Assembly (NCBI RefSeq): GCF_004118935.1
Contig: NZ_CP035375.1
Coordinates: 1,674,001-1,738,000 of the forward strand
Origin: Salinibacterium sp. UTAS2018
Lineage (GTDB): Bacteria; Actinomycetota; Actinomycetes; Actinomycetales; Microbacteriaceae
DNA length: 64,000 nt
Direction of reading: 5' to 3'
The translations under genes and the position numbers were made by a program. Each line of letters opens with the position of its first letter. Positions within the stretch are counted from its first letter, which is position 1. This document shows positions 10,114-57,758 of this stretch, piece by piece. The notes under the pieces are model-generated. The model saw only the letters and a list, made by a program, of their open reading frames with translations. It was not told the DNA's origin and did no database searches.

Positions 10114-10158
10114 AGCAACCTTGGTTGACACCGCGACGATTAGCAACGTAGGTTGACA
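10114..10158 (+). promoter_or_regulatory. Pair of direct repeats, probable operator of the HTH/Clp-N gene pair
   Basis: Two copies of a 17-bp element, AGCAACCTTGGTTGACA (10114-10130) and AGCAACGTAGGTTGACA (10142-10158), match at 15 of 17 positions with a 28-bp period. The first contains the perfect palindrome CAACCTTGGTTG. The second copy ends 2 bp before the ATG at 10161 and overlaps its ribosome site. Binding by the HTH protein encoded immediately downstream is an inference. Confidence 0.6.
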
Positions 10159-10160
10159 GC

Positions 10161-10406
10161 ATGGAATCTTCCCAGATCGCAGCGGTTGCCTCCGACACCC
10201 GTGACCCCAGGTCGGGGCTTCGCGCAGTGGCCTCACTGCGCATGCTGGCTGACACCCTAGAACTGCGCCAGGTCGAGGCCGCACTGCGCTCCGGCATGAC
10301 GTGGCAGGACGTCGCTGACGCTCTTGGAGTATCCCGACAAGCCGCCCACAAGAAGCATGCCAAACGGGTCGACCCGACGATCCCGATGCCGAGGAAGAAC
10401 GCATGA
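10161..10406 (+). CDS. Small helix-turn-helix protein paired with a Clp-N protein
   Basis: This 81-residue protein is little more than a DNA-binding helix-turn-helix. The motif MTWQDVADALGVSRQAAHKK (about residues 46-65) is a classic recognition-helix pattern. The N-terminal half forms a helix around LRAVASLRMLADTLELRQVE. It is clearly related to the small protein encoded at 57086-57304: the GLRAV segment and the DALGV-RQ segment align. Its stop overlaps the start of the next gene by 4 bp (ATGA), so the two are co-translated. Repeats just upstream suggest that it controls its own operon. The family has no function that I recognise. Confidence 0.85.
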   Translation: MESSQIAAVASDTRDPRSGLRAVASLRMLADTLELRQVEAALRSGMTWQDVADALGVSRQAAHKKHAKRVDPTIPMPRKNA

Positions 10407-11401
10407 ACAAGTTCGTTCGCAGTGCCCAGACCTCTCAATCCCTCTCCCTTGTCGCCATGGAAGAAGCGTCCCGGCTGGGGCTTCGCCAAGCCGATCTCGA
10501 ACATCTGCTCCTCGCGCTCATCGTCAACGAACAGTCCGGCGGGCAGGCGCTGCGCAGCCTAGGCCTCACTATGGACGCCGCCCGCCGTGCAGTCGAAGAT
10601 CAGCATGAGACTCAGTTGGCCTCCCTCGGCATCGAGGCCGCGTTCCCCGAAGCGGGAAGGATCGTGTTCCACGAAACGAACGGGTATGAGTGGAGCACCC
10701 GCGCCACCGACCTCATTGCTCGCGCTAGCTCCCGAGGCAACAAGGGCGACGCCTCAGCGGTGCTCCGCGAGCTCGCAGCAGAGCCCAGTGGGCTGATCAC
10801 CAATATTCTTGATCGTCTTGGCACGACGGCCGATGCCGTGTTGGAACGTCTCGATCAGTACGACATGCCAGAGGCATCGACCACGCCCCCCGCGGCACCC
10901 ACGCCAGCGGTGAAGGGCCGTGTCTCTGGAACAAGACAGACATTCGTCCCGGCATCTCTCGACGCAGTGTGGGAGTTTCTTACAGACCCGACAAAGATCC
11001 CCGAGTGGGAGATGGGCGTCGGCTCCATTGATCACGACCAGCGGGAGCCAGAGATTGGCGATGTCTGGCAAGGCCAAACACCCACAAGGCGGCCGGACGG
11101 CAAGCCGCTCAAGACGAAGCCCCAGTTTCGTCGCCGCAGTATCGAATTCGTGGCAGCGGACCGCCCCGACTACAGCGCCTGGCGCTTCGCCTACCCCGAC
11201 TCTCCTCACAGCGTTTCTGTGCTGACAGAGTTCTCGCTGGAGCCCGCGGCCGGCGGCACCCAGATCACGATCACCACCTCGTGGACTCGCCACCCTGGAT
11301 GGCGCAGGCTCGTCGGATTACCGTTTCGCCCTGCCCAAAAGTTTCTGGTGTGGTTCACCCTCTTCCAGATGGGCAGCGCGATCAGCCGCGCATTCCGATG
11401 A
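10403..11401 (+). CDS. Clp N-terminal domain protein fused to an SRPBCC domain
   Basis: Residues 1-150 look like the double Clp N-terminal repeat (LEHLLLALIVNEQSGGQALRSLG and a weaker second copy around residues 85-140). This is the adaptor and substrate-binding module of ClpA/ClpC, but no AAA+ ATPase follows. After a Thr/Pro/Ala linker (about 155-172), residues 175-332 resemble an SRPBCC/polyketide-cyclase-like ligand-binding fold (SLDAVWEFLTDPTKIPEWEMG, and a C-terminal helix FRPAQKFLVWFTLFQMG). The gene is translationally coupled to the HTH gene upstream. The combination suggests a sensor or adaptor rather than an enzyme. The ligand and partner are unknown. Confidence 0.8.
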   Translation: MNKFVRSAQTSQSLSLVAMEEASRLGLRQADLEHLLLALIVNEQSGGQALRSLGLTMDAARRAVEDQHETQLASLGIEAAFPEAGRIVFHETNGYEWSTRATDLIARASSRGNKGDASAVLRELAAEPSGLITNILDRLGTTADAVLERLDQYDMPEASTTPPAAPTPAVKGRVSGTRQTFVPASLDAVWEFLTDPTKIPEWEMGVGSIDHDQREPEIGDVWQGQTPTRRPDGKPLKTKPQFRRRSIEFVAADRPDYSAWRFAYPDSPHSVSVLTEFSLEPAAGGTQITITTSWTRHPGWRRLVGLPFRPAQKFLVWFTLFQMGSAISRAFR

Positions 11402-11450: not shown

Positions 11451-12269
11451 TCAGCGTGCGCTGGAGCGGGCGAAAGCGTGGGCACGCGCCGCGAGCGAGC
11501 GCGAAAGGCGGCCGAAGAGATCGAGGCTCGCTTGCCCCGGCCAGTCCGCGGGCAGCGCCGAATTCGGCAGCCCGGGGTCGAGGTACGGGATGACCCTCCA
11601 CTGATCCAGCGCGTGGATGTAACACGCAAAGGCTTCGGCGTCGCTCGACGCGGGGCCGACTAGAGCGGAGTGCTGCGCGAGAAAGCGGTCGTGTAGTTCA
11701 CGCAAGCGGTCTAAGTCCCACCACTCGGCTGCGGCATCCGCAAACGAGCGATTTGCATCGGGGCGGCCGGCGATAAAGAGCGTCGCGCAGTCGCTGAGAT
11801 CAAGGTCGTTGAGGATGCCCAAGACCTCTGTTTTTAGGTGAACGGGGCAGATCCACAGCCCGGTCGCGACGGTGCCACAGCCGATCCAGCCGAGACGACG
11901 CCGCAACTGGTGGCGGGCATCCCGGCGCGACTCCGGGATGGAAAACGAGATGAGACACCATTGGTCAGCTTCGCGCTGCTGGCGAAAGTTGAAAATGCGG
12001 CGATCGCCACTCTCAAGCATCGGCACGGCTTCGAGGTTCACCCGATAGCCCTGCTGGCCGTGCGCCATTTCTGGCACAAGGAGCCCCTTGGATTTCACTC
12101 GTGCGATGGCGCTGCGAGCGCCATTGGCCGGTACTCCCAGCGCCTCGAGGATGCGCACGAGATGCGCCGACGAGATCCAGCCCCCGAGCTGACGCAGTTG
12201 CGAGCCCACAAAGGTGCGCAGTAGCGAGGTCGCACTCCCCGGGCGGGAGTCGAAGTCATCCAGAATCAC
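11451..12269 (-). CDS. PaaX-family transcriptional regulator
   Basis: This 272-residue protein has the PaaX layout. An N-terminal winged helix (about residues 20-80, WISSAHLVRILEALGVPANGARSAIARVK) is followed by a middle domain with the WCLISFSIPE-RRDARHQLRRRLGWIGCG pattern and a C-terminal PaaX domain ending in YLDPGLPNSALPADWPG. In enterobacteria PaaX is a repressor that responds to an aryl-CoA; the ligand here is unknown. The GTG start at 12269 lies 6 bp past the kynU stop, so the gene is the last of the tryptophan-degradation operon and probably regulates it. Confidence 0.88.
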   Translation of the reverse strand: MILDDFDSRPGSATSLLRTFVGSQLRQLGGWISSAHLVRILEALGVPANGARSAIARVKSKGLLVPEMAHGQQGYRVNLEAVPMLESGDRRIFNFRQQREADQWCLISFSIPESRRDARHQLRRRLGWIGCGTVATGLWICPVHLKTEVLGILNDLDLSDCATLFIAGRPDANRSFADAAAEWWDLDRLRELHDRFLAQHSALVGPASSDAEAFACYIHALDQWRVIPYLDPGLPNSALPADWPGQASLDLFGRLSRSLAARAHAFARSSAR

Positions 12270-12275
12270 GGGCGA

Positions 12276-13511
12276 TTACTGGGTGAGCTGCTCGTGAATG
12301 GCGGCGATGCCCAACTGAACTTCGGCGAAGGTTGTCGAGAGCGGCGATAATCCGAGACGGATGCCGTGGGGTCGACGGAAGTCAGGGATGATCCCCTGCT
12401 TCCAGAGTTCGGCGTTCACTGCGGCGAAGCTCTCGTGGTCGATCGTGACGTGGCTGCCGCGTTCGGCGGCATCCCGGGGCGAGCTGAGGGTAACGCCGAG
12501 CGGCACGAGCAGTTCGTCGATGAGCGCCAGCGCGTATTCGGTGAGGGCGATGGACTTGGCACGGATCGCGGGGATACCGGCCTCTTCGATGAGCCCGAGC
12601 ATGTCTTGCATCGCGAGCGAGCCGACGATCGAGGGCGTGCCACTGATGAAGCGACGAATGCCGTCGTGGGGCGCATAACCGGGGCCCATTTCGAAGGGGG
12701 TGTTGCTGCCCATCCACCCCTGGATCGGCTGGGTCATGGCCTCGATGTGCTCGGCACGTACGTAGCCGAAGGCTGGGGAGCCCGGGCCTCCGTTGAGGTA
12801 TTTGTACGTGCATCCGGCAGCAAGGTCGACGCCCCAGTCATCGAGCTGAGTCTCGACGACTCCGGCGGAGTGGCAGAGATCCCAGAGCACGAGAGCGCCC
12901 GCTTCGTGGACAAGCGCGGTGATGCCGGGCATGTCGGCGAGATGGCCCGAACGGTAGGCAACGTGGCTGATCACGACAAGCGCGGTGTTCTCGTTGAGGG
13001 CGGCCTTCATCTCGTCAGCGGTGACTCCCCCGTCGCTCGCGGGGTCGATCCAGCGCAAGGTCTTACCGAGTTCGGCCGCAATGCCCTCGACGAGGTAGCG
13101 GTCAGTCGGAAAGTTGCCGGTGTCGATGACGATTTCGCTGCGGTCGGGGCGAGCGCTGAGACCAGCGCGAATCAGCTTGTAGAGCACGACGGTCGTCGAG
13201 TCGCCGATGAAGGTTTGGCCGGGAGCTGCGCCGAGCGTTGCAGCACCGAGGCGGTCGCCGAGGGTCAAGGGCAGTTCGTACCAGGACTCGTCCCAGCCGC
13301 GGATGAGGCGGCCGCCCCACTGCTCGTCAACGAACTCCGCCAGGCGGGCGGCACTCGCAGTGGTGGGTCGCCCGAGCGAGTTGCCGTCGAGGTACGCCTG
13401 CACTTCGGCGGAGCGCACGAACTTGGCCGGGTACTGCTTGAGCGGATCGGCGGCATCGAAGGCTGCCGCCGCTTCGGCGCTTGTGTCAAAAGGTGCGGTC
13501 GTGTCGGTCAT
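12276..13511 (-). CDS. kynU: Kynureninase
   Basis: This PLP enzyme cleaves kynurenine to anthranilate and alanine in tryptophan degradation. The 411-residue length is typical. The PLP lysine lies in GCTYKYLNGGPGSPAFGYV, with the conserved DLCHSAG upstream; RPHGIRLGLSPL near the C-terminus is also typical. The ATG at 13511 ([11 protein letters not shown]) overlaps the stop of the amidohydrolase gene by 4 bp. An upstream extension to 13664 is open but has no conserved sequence and lies inside the previous gene, so it is not used here. Confidence 0.95.
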   Translation of the reverse strand: MTDTTAPFDTSAEAAAAFDAADPLKQYPAKFVRSAEVQAYLDGNSLGRPTTASAARLAEFVDEQWGGRLIRGWDESWYELPLTLGDRLGAATLGAAPGQTFIGDSTTVVLYKLIRAGLSARPDRSEIVIDTGNFPTDRYLVEGIAAELGKTLRWIDPASDGGVTADEMKAALNENTALVVISHVAYRSGHLADMPGITALVHEAGALVLWDLCHSAGVVETQLDDWGVDLAAGCTYKYLNGGPGSPAFGYVRAEHIEAMTQPIQGWMGSNTPFEMGPGYAPHDGIRRFISGTPSIVGSLAMQDMLGLIEEAGIPAIRAKSIALTEYALALIDELLVPLGVTLSSPRDAAERGSHVTIDHESFAAVNAELWKQGIIPDFRRPHGIRLGLSPLSTTFAEVQLGIAAIHEQLTQ

Positions 13512-14656
13512 AGGTCGATCCTCCAGGCGGTCGGGATGGGAGTTGTGGCGGCAGAAACGGCCTCGTCGCCGCCGTAGTTCGTGGCGGCCACCCGTGCTGC
13601 GCTGGCAGCAAACTCGGGGTGCAGCAATTCGCGCGCGGTCACGACGGTGGCGGTCATCAGCCACGACGCGAGATTCGCATCCGCCCGCGGCACGGTTGGC
13701 AGGTAGCTCACGGTGCTGCCGAATCCGGGCAAGCAGAGAGCCCGCAAGAGAGCGTCGTAGCGCACGCCCGCATCCTGCAGCGCGGTCAGCTCGCGCTCGT
13801 TGAGCCCCGGAGGAAGGTCACCGTTGCCGAGATCAGTACCGTAGCGAACGGCGCCGCCGGCGGTATGGAAGCGGCTCAGGTTGTCGCTCGCCCGAGCAAA
13901 ATCGCGACCACGCTGCCCATAGCCGTGGATGTCGAGGGTGCTGATCCACGAGTGGCGGCCAGCAAGAAAACGGGAATTCGGTTGCACCATCTCGGCGATC
14001 AGAGCGTCGCTAAGCTTCTCGGTCCACGGCGTATGGGCGAGGCGATCCGCTCCGGCGACAAATGCACGCTGCGCCTGGCCGACACCCTGCACGTGGGCCA
14101 CCACTTCGGCGCCGCGGCTGTGCGCGTGCTCAACGAGAGCGCTCAGGGTGTCATCGTCGATGACCGGGCCATCGTCAGAATTGAGGGCGACCTTGATGAA
14201 TGTGGCTCCGGCAGCAAGCTGCTCCGCGACCGCCGCCATTGCCTGCTCGCCGGTTTCGACCTCAGCCACCGCGAGCGTCGTCGCCCAGGCCCGATTGCTC
14301 GGATACCCGCCCGGCGCGGTGATGAACGCCGCGGCGTAGCGCACGGCCGGCACCGCATCATCGCCAGCCCACTCTCGAAGGCGATCCGGGTGCCCACCCA
14401 AGTCGTCGACGGCGGCGAGACCGCCAGCCACGAGAGCGCGCGGCTCCGTCAGCCCGAGGTGCACGTGCGCGTCGCGAAAGCCCGGAAGTAGCACTCCCGG
14501 GAGACGCACTGCGGTGGGGGTGGCGGCATCCGAAATCGGTCGGATGCCGTGAGGGCTCACCCGCACCGTGGCGGGGCCATGCCACTCCCGCAGCCAGTAG
14601 CCGTCGACGGCGTAGTCGACGCTGAGGGCAGGTTCGGAGGCTGGGTCGGCGCTCAC
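13508..14656 (-). CDS. Amidohydrolase of the imidazolonepropionase-like family, in the kyn operon
   Basis: This metal-dependent hydrolase has 382 residues, starting at the GTG that overlaps the kynA stop by 4 bp (GTGA). Metal ligands expected for the amidohydrolase fold are visible: HVH at residues 64-66, the lysine in FIKVALN, histidines in VVAHVQG and RLAHTPW, and the aspartate in RYGTDLGNG. Its place between tryptophan dioxygenase and kynureninase is where an N-formylkynurenine formamidase is needed, and no KynB-type gene is present. Acting as the formamidase is therefore a reasonable inference. Another hydrolytic step on a tryptophan derivative is possible. Confidence 0.8.
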
Positions 14657-15510
14657 GAGCGGCCAATCTCGGTGCGCACGGAGAACAGCTCGGGGAAGAA
14701 GGTGAGGTCGAGCGCTTTCTGCAGAAAGCCGACGCCGCTGGAGCCGCCGGTGCCGCGCTTCATGCCGATGATGCGCATGACGGTTTTCATGTGTCGGAAC
14801 CGCCAGAGTTGGAAGTTGTCTTCGAGGTCGACGAACTCTTCGCACGCTTCGTAGGCGAGCCAGTGTTCGCTTTCGTTGTCGTAAATGTGGCGGAAGGTCT
14901 CGATGAGGTCGTCGTTTTGCTCGTAGCCTCGCGTGACATCGCGAGTGAGCACGGCCTCAGGCACTTCGTAGCCGTGGCGGCTGAGGTAGCGCAAGAACTC
15001 GTCGTAAACGCTCGGCTCGGCCAACAGCTTGCTCAACAGGGCGTGAGCTTCGGGATGCGCTTCGAAGACCTTGAGCATCCCCGCGTTCTTATTGCCGAGC
15101 AGAAACTCGACCGCGCGGTATTGGTACGACTGGAATCCGGATGAACTACCGAGGTAGTCGCGAAACTGCGAATACTCACTCGGCGTCAGCGTCGCGAGCA
15201 CCGACCACTGCTCGGTGAGGGTGCGCTGGATGTGCTTGACGCGGGCGATGTGCTTGAGCGCCATCGACAGGTTGTCGGTCGCGATCAGTTCGCGGGCCGA
15301 CAGAAGTTCGTGAATCACGAGCTTGAGCCACAACTCCGTGGTCTGATGCTGGATGATGAACAACATCTCATCGTGATGCTCGGGCTTGCTTTGCGGAGTC
15401 TGCGCGCTCAGCAACGTGTCGAGTTCTAGATACGAGCCGTACGACATCCGCTTACTGAAGTCGGTAACGATGTCATCTTCGAGGGCACGTTCGTTGTGAG
15501 TATCCGACAT
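14653..15510 (-). CDS. kynA: Tryptophan 2,3-dioxygenase
   Basis: This haem dioxygenase opens the indole ring of L-tryptophan to give N-formylkynurenine. The 285-residue length and conserved blocks fit the family: [34 protein letters not shown] with the haem-pocket histidine, SGFQSYQYR, and [22 protein letters not shown] near the C-terminus. It is the first gene of the operon kynA - amidohydrolase - kynU - paaX-like, all linked by short overlaps or a 6-bp gap. Two TATTGC repeats (15521-15526 and 15529-15534) lie 10-25 bp upstream of the ATG and may be regulatory. Confidence 0.96.
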
Positions 15511-57039: not shown

Positions 57040-57082
57040 GTCAGTTTTACTTGACAACATCGCATCGTCAAGTGAAACTGAC
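57040..57082. promoter_or_regulatory. Long inverted repeat before the second HTH/Clp-N pair
   Basis: Arms GTCAGTTTTACTTGAC (57040-57055) and GTCAAGTGAAACTGAC (57067-57082) are reverse complements at 15 of 16 positions, with an 11-bp spacer. The right arm ends 3 bp before the HTH start codon at 57086. It is a strong candidate operator. Like the 10.1 kb repeats it contains TTGACA. Confidence 0.72.
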
Positions 57083-57085
57083 ACT

Positions 57086-57304
57086 ATGGATTCAGTGAAC
57101 TTGGGCGAACAGCTCCGCACCGCCACCCCCGCAACCGGGTTGCGTGCGGTCGGGGCACTACACCGCCTCGCGGAGCACGTCGAAGCGACCCATGTTGCGC
57201 AGGCTCGCCGCGATGGCTGGTCGTGGGAGCAGATCGGCGACGCGCTGGGTGTCACACGACAGTCCGTTCACCTCAAATATGGAAAGCAGGGAAATGATGT
57301 TTGA
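57086..57304 (+). CDS. Small helix-turn-helix protein paired with a Clp-N protein (second pair)
   Basis: This 72-residue protein is a stand-alone DNA-binding helix-turn-helix (WSWEQIGDALGVTRQSVHLKY, about residues 45-65), preceded by helices around ATGLRAVGALHRLAEHVEATH. It is the paralogue of the protein encoded at 10161: GLRAV, then DALGV-RQ, align in both. ATG 57086 is chosen over 57038 because the 57038 frame would run through the operator-like repeat. Its stop overlaps the start of the Clp-N gene by 11 bp. Autoregulation at the adjacent repeat is an inference. Confidence 0.85.
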   Translation: MDSVNLGEQLRTATPATGLRAVGALHRLAEHVEATHVAQARRDGWSWEQIGDALGVTRQSVHLKYGKQGNDV

Positions 57305-57758
57305 GACGTTGACACAATCTGCGAGAACCACCGTCGAGGATGCCCGGCACGAGGCAGCGCGGCGGGGCGACCGGCGCCTCGGCACCGACCACCTTCTGCT
57401 GGCTCTGCTGCACGAAGAGGAGCTCGCTCGAGCCGTTGGAGTCGACGCTACGAGTGCCGCGGAAGCCGCCGACCAACTCGACCGAGATGCCTTGACGGCG
57501 ATCGGGCTCGATGTCGGCACGTTCTGCCCAACCGCCCACGCCGCCGCCTCGAAACGAGTTCCCCTGACGGCCGGCGCCAAGGCCGCTCTTCAACAGACTC
57601 TGGTCAGCGCTGCCGCCGAAAAGGCGCGAACAGTGACGTCGCGCCACATCTTGCTCGCGCTCCTCGACCGCCGCGAGCCCGACTCAGCCGCAACCCTCCT
57701 CACCGCGCTTGCAGTTGACCGGCACGCAGCGCGCGACCGGCTGATCGCCCTCGCTTAG
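57294..57758 (+). CDS. Clp N-terminal-domain-only protein
   Basis: This 154-residue protein consists of two Clp N-terminal repeats and nothing more: LGTDHLLLALLHEEELARAVGV (about 28-50) and VTSRHILLALLDRREPDSAATLL (about 115-138). It lacks the AAA+ module and lacks the SRPBCC domain present in its relative at 10403. It would bind peptides or a partner without unfolding them, or compete with ClpC. ATG 57294 or 57297 starts it. It is co-translated with the HTH gene. No function is established for such stand-alone proteins that I know. Confidence 0.85.
   Translation: MMFETLTQSARTTVEDARHEAARRGDRRLGTDHLLLALLHEEELARAVGVDATSAAEAADQLDRDALTAIGLDVGTFCPTAHAAASKRVPLTAGAKAALQQTLVSAAAEKARTVTSRHILLALLDRREPDSAATLLTALAVDRHAARDRLIALA

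Follow-up and report, generated by a model that had tools for sequence, protein, structure and literature searches.

An HTH gene and an overlapping gene for an ATPase-less Clp_N protein extended by an SRPBCC domain constitute a split, SRPBCC-extended variant of the known ClpC2 system, and we consider it probable that they work as a ClpC2-type autorepressor and sponge system. The pair lies in a 64,000-nt stretch of the Salinibacterium sp. UTAS2018 genome (NZ_CP035375.1, positions 1,674,001–1,738,000; hereafter the window). ClpC2 is a mycobacterial protein that joins an HTH to an ATPase-less Clp_N and acts as an autorepressor and cyclomarin sponge (PMC10030653). The initial annotation knew of no described function for the combination. 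For an HTH with an ATPase-less Clp_N this does not hold, since that is the make-up of ClpC2; for the split form with SRPBCC it does within open-licence PubMed Central, where we found no paper on Clp_N with SRPBCC or on a split HTH/Clp_N pair.

Gene pair and domain make-up

The 81-aa HTH ORF shares 4 bp (ATGA) with the 332-aa ORF that follows, and two operator-like sites precede the HTH start codon:

10114..10129, + strand: distal operator-like site, AGCAAC-CTTG-GTTGAC (sequence)
10142..10157, + strand: proximal operator-like site, AGCAAC-GTAG-GTTGAC (sequence; locus comparison)
10161..10406, + strand: HTH gene, 81 aa; recognition helix at about residues 58–68, placed by eye
10403..11401, + strand: gene for the Clp_N-SRPBCC protein, 332 aa, without AAA+ domain (Pfam, homologues)
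10454..10600, + strand: first Clp_N repeat, residues 18–66 (Pfam)
10763..10861, + strand: degenerate second Clp_N repeat (E 0.012, below cut-off; alignment)
10931..11317, + strand: SRPBCC domain, residues 177–305 (Pfam; weak match to a solved chain)

The 332-aa protein matches Pfam Clp_N over residues 18–66 (E 8.5e-12; 45.5 bits, cut-off 20.7), with a second, weak stretch, and two SRPBCC-type families over residues ~177–305, Polyketide_cyc2 (33.2 bits, cut-off 27.4) and AHSA1 (30.5 bits, cut-off 22.1). No AAA+ domain matches at E ≤ 1. These results bear out the overlapping HTH and ATPase-less Clp_N/SRPBCC genes described in the initial annotation, including the SRPBCC match in the C-terminal half on which that description hinged. 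The SRPBCC part also matches weakly (E 0.0015) the solved chain 2leq, which we take to have an SRPBCC fold; as a member of this type it would form a helix-grip fold with a ligand cavity. The C-terminal ISRAFR of the protein (window 11381–11398) is conserved in relatives; S328, R329, F331 and the terminal R332 do not vary among 58 aligned sequences, but they are not shared by all 19 members of the clade described below.

The HTH protein stays under the Pfam cut-offs, the best match being HTH_23 (21.1 vs 24.6 bits). A profile of the family matches RelI (9sdc) at E 5.3e-7 and the ClpC2 N-domain chain 8ada at E 5.6e-4; a designed repeat protein, 8vd6, scores E 4.3e-4. Six fused ClpC2-type HTH-Clp_N proteins match the profile at E 4.7e-10 to 1.1e-8.

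Scoring only the 8000 candidates that shared most words with the 332-aa protein, we found 320 homologues at E ≤ 1e-3, and the best 120 of the 320 cover 95–100% of the query. The Clp_N/SRPBCC layout is thus not due to chance. The source names are Clp protease N-terminal or SRPBCC proteins, from Microbacterium, Cryobacterium, Glutamicibacter, Rathayibacter and others.

Conserved gene order and tandem operator-like sites

Full-length matches to the 332-aa protein occur in 10 of 120 family-level genomes, our own included. All ten have the HTH gene, the 4-bp overlap and two operator copies, the proximal one being degenerate in L013. The remaining family-level matches mostly align the first 60-odd residues with long open frames, presumably ClpC, and the one listed genome of the same genus (G082) has only such a short, ~60-residue match; a single-protein scan of genome contigs returned one relative. 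At class level the HTH profile matches 270 of 394 genomes (E ≤ 0.001). A separate Clp_N frame lies directly downstream of the HTH in 60/60 Actinomycetes loci, which we picked by hand among the higher-ranking matches so as to cover different families, a non-random set biased to strong HTH matches. The weaker HTH matches comprise 29 loci in 16 re-searched genomes: six are fused HTH-Clp_N loci (L135–L138, L146, L147), two have a separate Clp_N and 21 have none detected, so the HTH family is wider than the HTH-Clp_N pair. A phylum-level search gave matches in 38 of 198 genomes at E ≤ 1e-12; four of the ten loci returned from it belong to other classes, and all four have the pair and operator-like sites. 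The genome survey proposed in the initial annotation thus finds the adjacency conserved at family and class level. Together with the tandem operator-like site at the HTH start codon, this makes its reading of the pair as a regulatory module well supported. Some Clp_N frames are longer (562 aa in L091, 243 in L103, 328 in L123) and may be reading-frame artefacts.

AGCAAC-N4-GTTGAC occurs twice, 28 bp apart, and the proximal copy stops 3 nt before the HTH ATG; the exact tandem pattern is found once in the genome, at this operon. We compared 71 loci (10 family-level, 60 class-level and the second pair in the window) with random segments of the same loci. Two operator-like sites with at least 8 of 12 half-site bases are present in 67/71 loci vs 44/1293 control segments, the four loci without them being L073, L076, L080 and L090; at a stricter 9 of 12 bases the counts are 62/71 and 2/1293. 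Where two sites are present, their centres lie 27–29 bp apart in 62/67 loci and the gap between proximal site and start codon is 3 or 4 nt in 58/67.

Starting from the operator gave a similar association. The exact tandem pattern occurs in 47 of 296 genomes, and a reversed control pattern in none of the listed genomes. Of 48 distinct tandem places, 41 precede an HTH of the ClpC2-related family (E ≤ 2e-8), one precedes a weak HTH (L209) and six precede none. Clp_N follows in 32 of the 41; among the other nine, the L193 stretch ends 302 bases on. Single sites with at most one mismatch numbered 71 and 91 in our own genome vs 98 and 91 for the controls, and with counts at control level we claim no wider regulon there. 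The N5 pattern, allowing two mismatches, occurs at 194 places vs 97 for its reversed control.

In ClpC2 the operator is CGTCAAC-n5-GTTGACG; it lies 1–2 nt before a leaderless ORF, is often repeated, and overlaps the −35 and −10 boxes (PMC10030653). By analogy, TTGACA (10125–10130) in the distal site would be a −35 box and TAGGTT (10149–10154) in the proximal site the −10 box of a leaderless transcript. A consensus scan for a sigma-70 promoter called none in the region 10114–10157. The likeness to ClpC2 (Rv2667 family) covers an HTH-related N-domain, an ATPase-less Clp_N, start-codon sites close to the GTCAAC/GTTGAC type and an apparent leaderless promoter (PMC10030653). The differences are that ClpC2 is one polypeptide whereas here two genes overlap, that the spacer is N4 instead of N5, with the right six-base half identical and the left differing at two of six bases, and that here SRPBCC is added, the second Clp_N repeat is degenerate and the cyclomarin-contact residues are mostly replaced. 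Fused HTH-Clp_N loci have the same half-sites as split loci, with N5 in 5/6 (assigned by eye; the L147 stretch begins inside the site). The spacer of five bases in the fused systems (L135–L138, L146) vs four in split ones suggests a different dimer geometry.

A second HTH/Clp_N pair (57086–57758) lies in the window:

57040..57055, + strand: distal operator-like site, GTCAGTTTTACTTGAC (sequence)
57067..57082, + strand: proximal operator-like site, GTCAAGTGAAACTGAC, 3 nt before the start codon (sequence)
57086..57304, + strand: second HTH gene, 72 aa, recognition helix RQSVH
57297..57758, + strand: second Clp_N gene, 153 aa, without SRPBCC

Its genes overlap by 8 bp, and its layout is that of the first pair minus SRPBCC. 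Because it has another recognition helix (RQSVH) and the half-site CTGAC, it is probably not cross-regulated with the first. Stand-alone Clp_N and HTH pairs of Actinomycetota, of which this is an example, share with the first pair the gene order, the overlap or near-overlap and the tandem operator-like sites; they differ in being without SRPBCC, and many keep the cyclomarin-site residues.

Reading of the operator and the SRPBCC clade

For ClpC2, Taylor et al. (2023) assigned dimerisation to the N-domain and contact with DNA to R185 and R189 in the Clp_N half, where R185A/R189A mutations reduce DNA binding (PMC10030653). Their N-domain crystal (8ADA) goes no further than residue 72 (PMC10030653), which corresponds to position 57 of our profile alignment and immediately precedes the recognition helix. 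The RelI paper had already pointed to an HTH region in ClpC2 (PMC13284704).

Three observations favour the HTH as the reader of the operator. First, an operator of this kind is also present at HTHs that have no Clp_N (L129–L132, L134, L196–L198). Second, an operator-like site was found for 135 of 143 distinct HTHs, and with 20 HTHs that have other half-sites set aside, residue 61 is A in 92/93 HTHs whose right half is TTGAC, and S or T in 18/22 and A in 4 of those with CTGAC. Third, in 104 HTH-Clp_N pairs (66 HTH and 166 Clp_N columns compared), recognition-helix residues 61 and 64 have the top mutual information with the TTGAC/CTGAC operator base, at 0.67 and 0.68 vs 0.59 for the best Clp_N column, or 0.65 and 0.61 vs 0.47 after subtraction of shuffled values. 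Most HTHs of the CTGAC class resemble one another and form a single group, so shared descent inflates all columns; the Clp_N columns have the same descent and serve as control, but the lead over the best of them is moderate. From these three observations we conclude that DNA reading is probably the task of the HTH, in contrast to its published placement on the Clp_N half. The R185A/R189A data stand against a reading by the HTH only and may reflect a supporting contact. Comparison of split with fused systems suggests which part of ClpC2 reads DNA.

SRPBCC is present in 19 of the 71 loci, and these form one clade (support 0.99 in a joint tree of 69 loci, 0.98 with Clp_N, 0.62 with the HTH alone). 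Within it, the genes overlap by 4 bp in 18/19 loci and by 1 bp in L074, and 18/19 have two operator-like sites. In L083 the HTH frame is without its N-terminal part and the start codon is not clearly placed. At the cyclomarin site (ClpC1 numbering; the alignment is uncertain in the degenerate second Clp_N repeat), F is found at position 2 in 12 of the 19 proteins and at position 80 in two, with W in 15. E is not among the four commonest residues at position 89 (A in 10/19). At positions 85 and 93, K and R either are missing from the commonest residues or share that place with others. For the 50 split Clp_N proteins outside the clade (L091 and L125 set aside), F2 is kept in 35, F80 in 32, E89 in 31, K85 in 40 and R93, which equals ClpC2 R185 by an offset of 92, in 37. 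Thus, the drug groove of ClpC2 is not preserved in the SRPBCC clade, but the HTH and operator are. With the cyclomarin-type site mostly replaced, the clade probably takes up a ligand other than cyclomarin, for which SRPBCC may be the receptor.

Proposed mechanism and alternatives

The most economical course of events would follow ClpC2, except that the parts sit on two polypeptides. The HTH protein would bind the two promoter-overlaying palindromes, probably in dimeric form, and, as in ClpC2, keep the leaderless operon low. The Clp_N-SRPBCC protein would mimic the substrate- and drug-docking N-domain of ClpC without its ATPase and bear a ligand-binding SRPBCC fold. Its ligand would probably be either an exposed client or a natural product of hydrophobic character. 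On ligand uptake, the HTH would let go through a putative contact between the two proteins, and more sponge would be made. The leaderless start, ligand release and sponge function are carried over from ClpC2, which is protective (PMC10030653), is induced by a cyclomarin and not by ecumicin or ilamycin compounds (PMC12913811), and blunts one of the several peptide antibiotics that target ClpC (PMC10030653, PMC12913811). Several results count against the autorepressor-sponge reading: the profile scores 8vd6 at least as well as 8ada, no sigma-70 promoter was called, the R185A/R189A mutations in the Clp_N half of ClpC2 weaken DNA binding (PMC10030653), and HTH residue 42 is L in 19/19 members of the SRPBCC clade, R42 mapping by profile to R57 of the published ClpC2 dimer bridge (PMC10030653). 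HTHs without Clp_N also keep the same operator, so that Clp_N cannot be the only signal sensor and may be a mere output.

The last point leads to an alternative, which we regard as unlikely, in which the HTH needs no partner to repress and to sense, or else is under proteolytic control, and the Clp_N-SRPBCC protein is only an output (decoy or holdase) without feedback on the HTH. It draws on loci in which family HTHs with the same operator precede genes other than Clp_N: ABC exporters in L130 (by Pfam), L131, L132 and L134 (by eye), a GrpB-family protein in L129, and, after a tandem operator, beta-lactamase-fold proteins in L196 (PF00144), L197 and L198 (by eye). The sites lie further from the start codon in L129 and L130. 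Four genomes of one family (G174, G268, G331, G375) appear to use the operator in trans, with a tandem operator before an ABC exporter and no adjacent HTH (L213–L216; exporter by Pfam in L213 and by eye in the others, exact start codons uncertain). Against this alternative, a ligand on the Clp_N of ClpC2 lowers DNA binding (PMC10030653), the fusion of HTH and Clp_N in ClpC2-type proteins favours direct coupling, and an HTH of ~80 aa would have little room for a ligand site.

The same four genomes each hold an HTH-Clp_N pair with operator-like sites elsewhere (L231–L234), which ties Clp_N to efflux and hence to small-molecule defence. Judged from the common tandem operator, HTH-linked and operator-only ABC exporters likely form a shared defence regulon. 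A broader synthesis is conceivable, though we hold it only tentatively. A large actinobacterial family of HTH repressors would recognise tandem GTCAAC/GTTGAC operators with the recognition helix that each repressor carries, and ClpC2 would be a single, fused branch of this family. The outputs would serve defence in different ways, as Clp_N decoys, Clp_N-SRPBCC decoys, ABC exporters or beta-lactamase-fold hydrolases. In the SRPBCC clade, ligand sensing would have shifted away from the Clp_N groove and onto SRPBCC, and DNA recognition by the Clp_N half, as published, would be wrong or secondary. Split pairs separate DNA reading from ligand binding and so can show what is hidden in fused ClpC2, namely the half responsible for reading the operator, the other genes under operator control and a possible exchange of the sensor part. 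If this is right, the operator offers a way to find, across Actinomycetota, defence genes and Clp-directed natural products that are still unknown.

Action of Clp_N on ClpC, or delivery of the HTH to ClpC, was a further suggestion of the initial annotation; no result supports it, and it ranks low. In its adaptor form, which we consider improbable, the Clp_N-SRPBCC protein would bind ClpC, or partners of ClpC, and thereby govern how the HTH repressor is degraded. The Clp_N repeat and the close coupling of the genes agree with such a role, but neither a degron nor an interaction speaks for it, and the second Clp_N repeat is degenerate in the SRPBCC clade. Clp_N, moreover, normally receives adaptors rather than being one.

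Still less credible is a toxin-antitoxin-like pair, with the HTH as antitoxin and autorepressor and the Clp_N-SRPBCC protein acting on ClpC. The short overlapping genes, the operator-like site at the start and the relation of the HTH to the antitoxin RelI, itself linked to the ClpC2 HTH by HHpred (PMC13284704), would fit it. However, RelI partners a Rel-family toxin whose gene comes first, and its authors report no inverted repeats upstream (PMC13284704); the partner here is a Clp_N-SRPBCC protein. The pair has no match in a plasmid collection (E 1e-20) or a phage collection (E 1e-8), the SRPBCC part scores only 13.6 bits against the NCBIfam Rv0910-toxin model, whose cut-off is 100, and ClpC2 protects. 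That the genes are chance neighbours without a common role can be practically dismissed: the neighbouring nuclease and PaaX genes had no match (E 1e-3) in 18 related loci within the flanks available (~1.5 kb on each side, or 0.4 kb before and 2 kb after the pair), which would fit chance, but the pair itself, in all the chosen class-level loci, with its conserved overlap and operator, contradicts this explanation.

On the minus strand, window 11451–15510 holds a PaaX-type regulator (Pfam) beside kynureninase- and tryptophan 2,3-dioxygenase-like genes (by eye), an apparent kynurenine pathway cluster.
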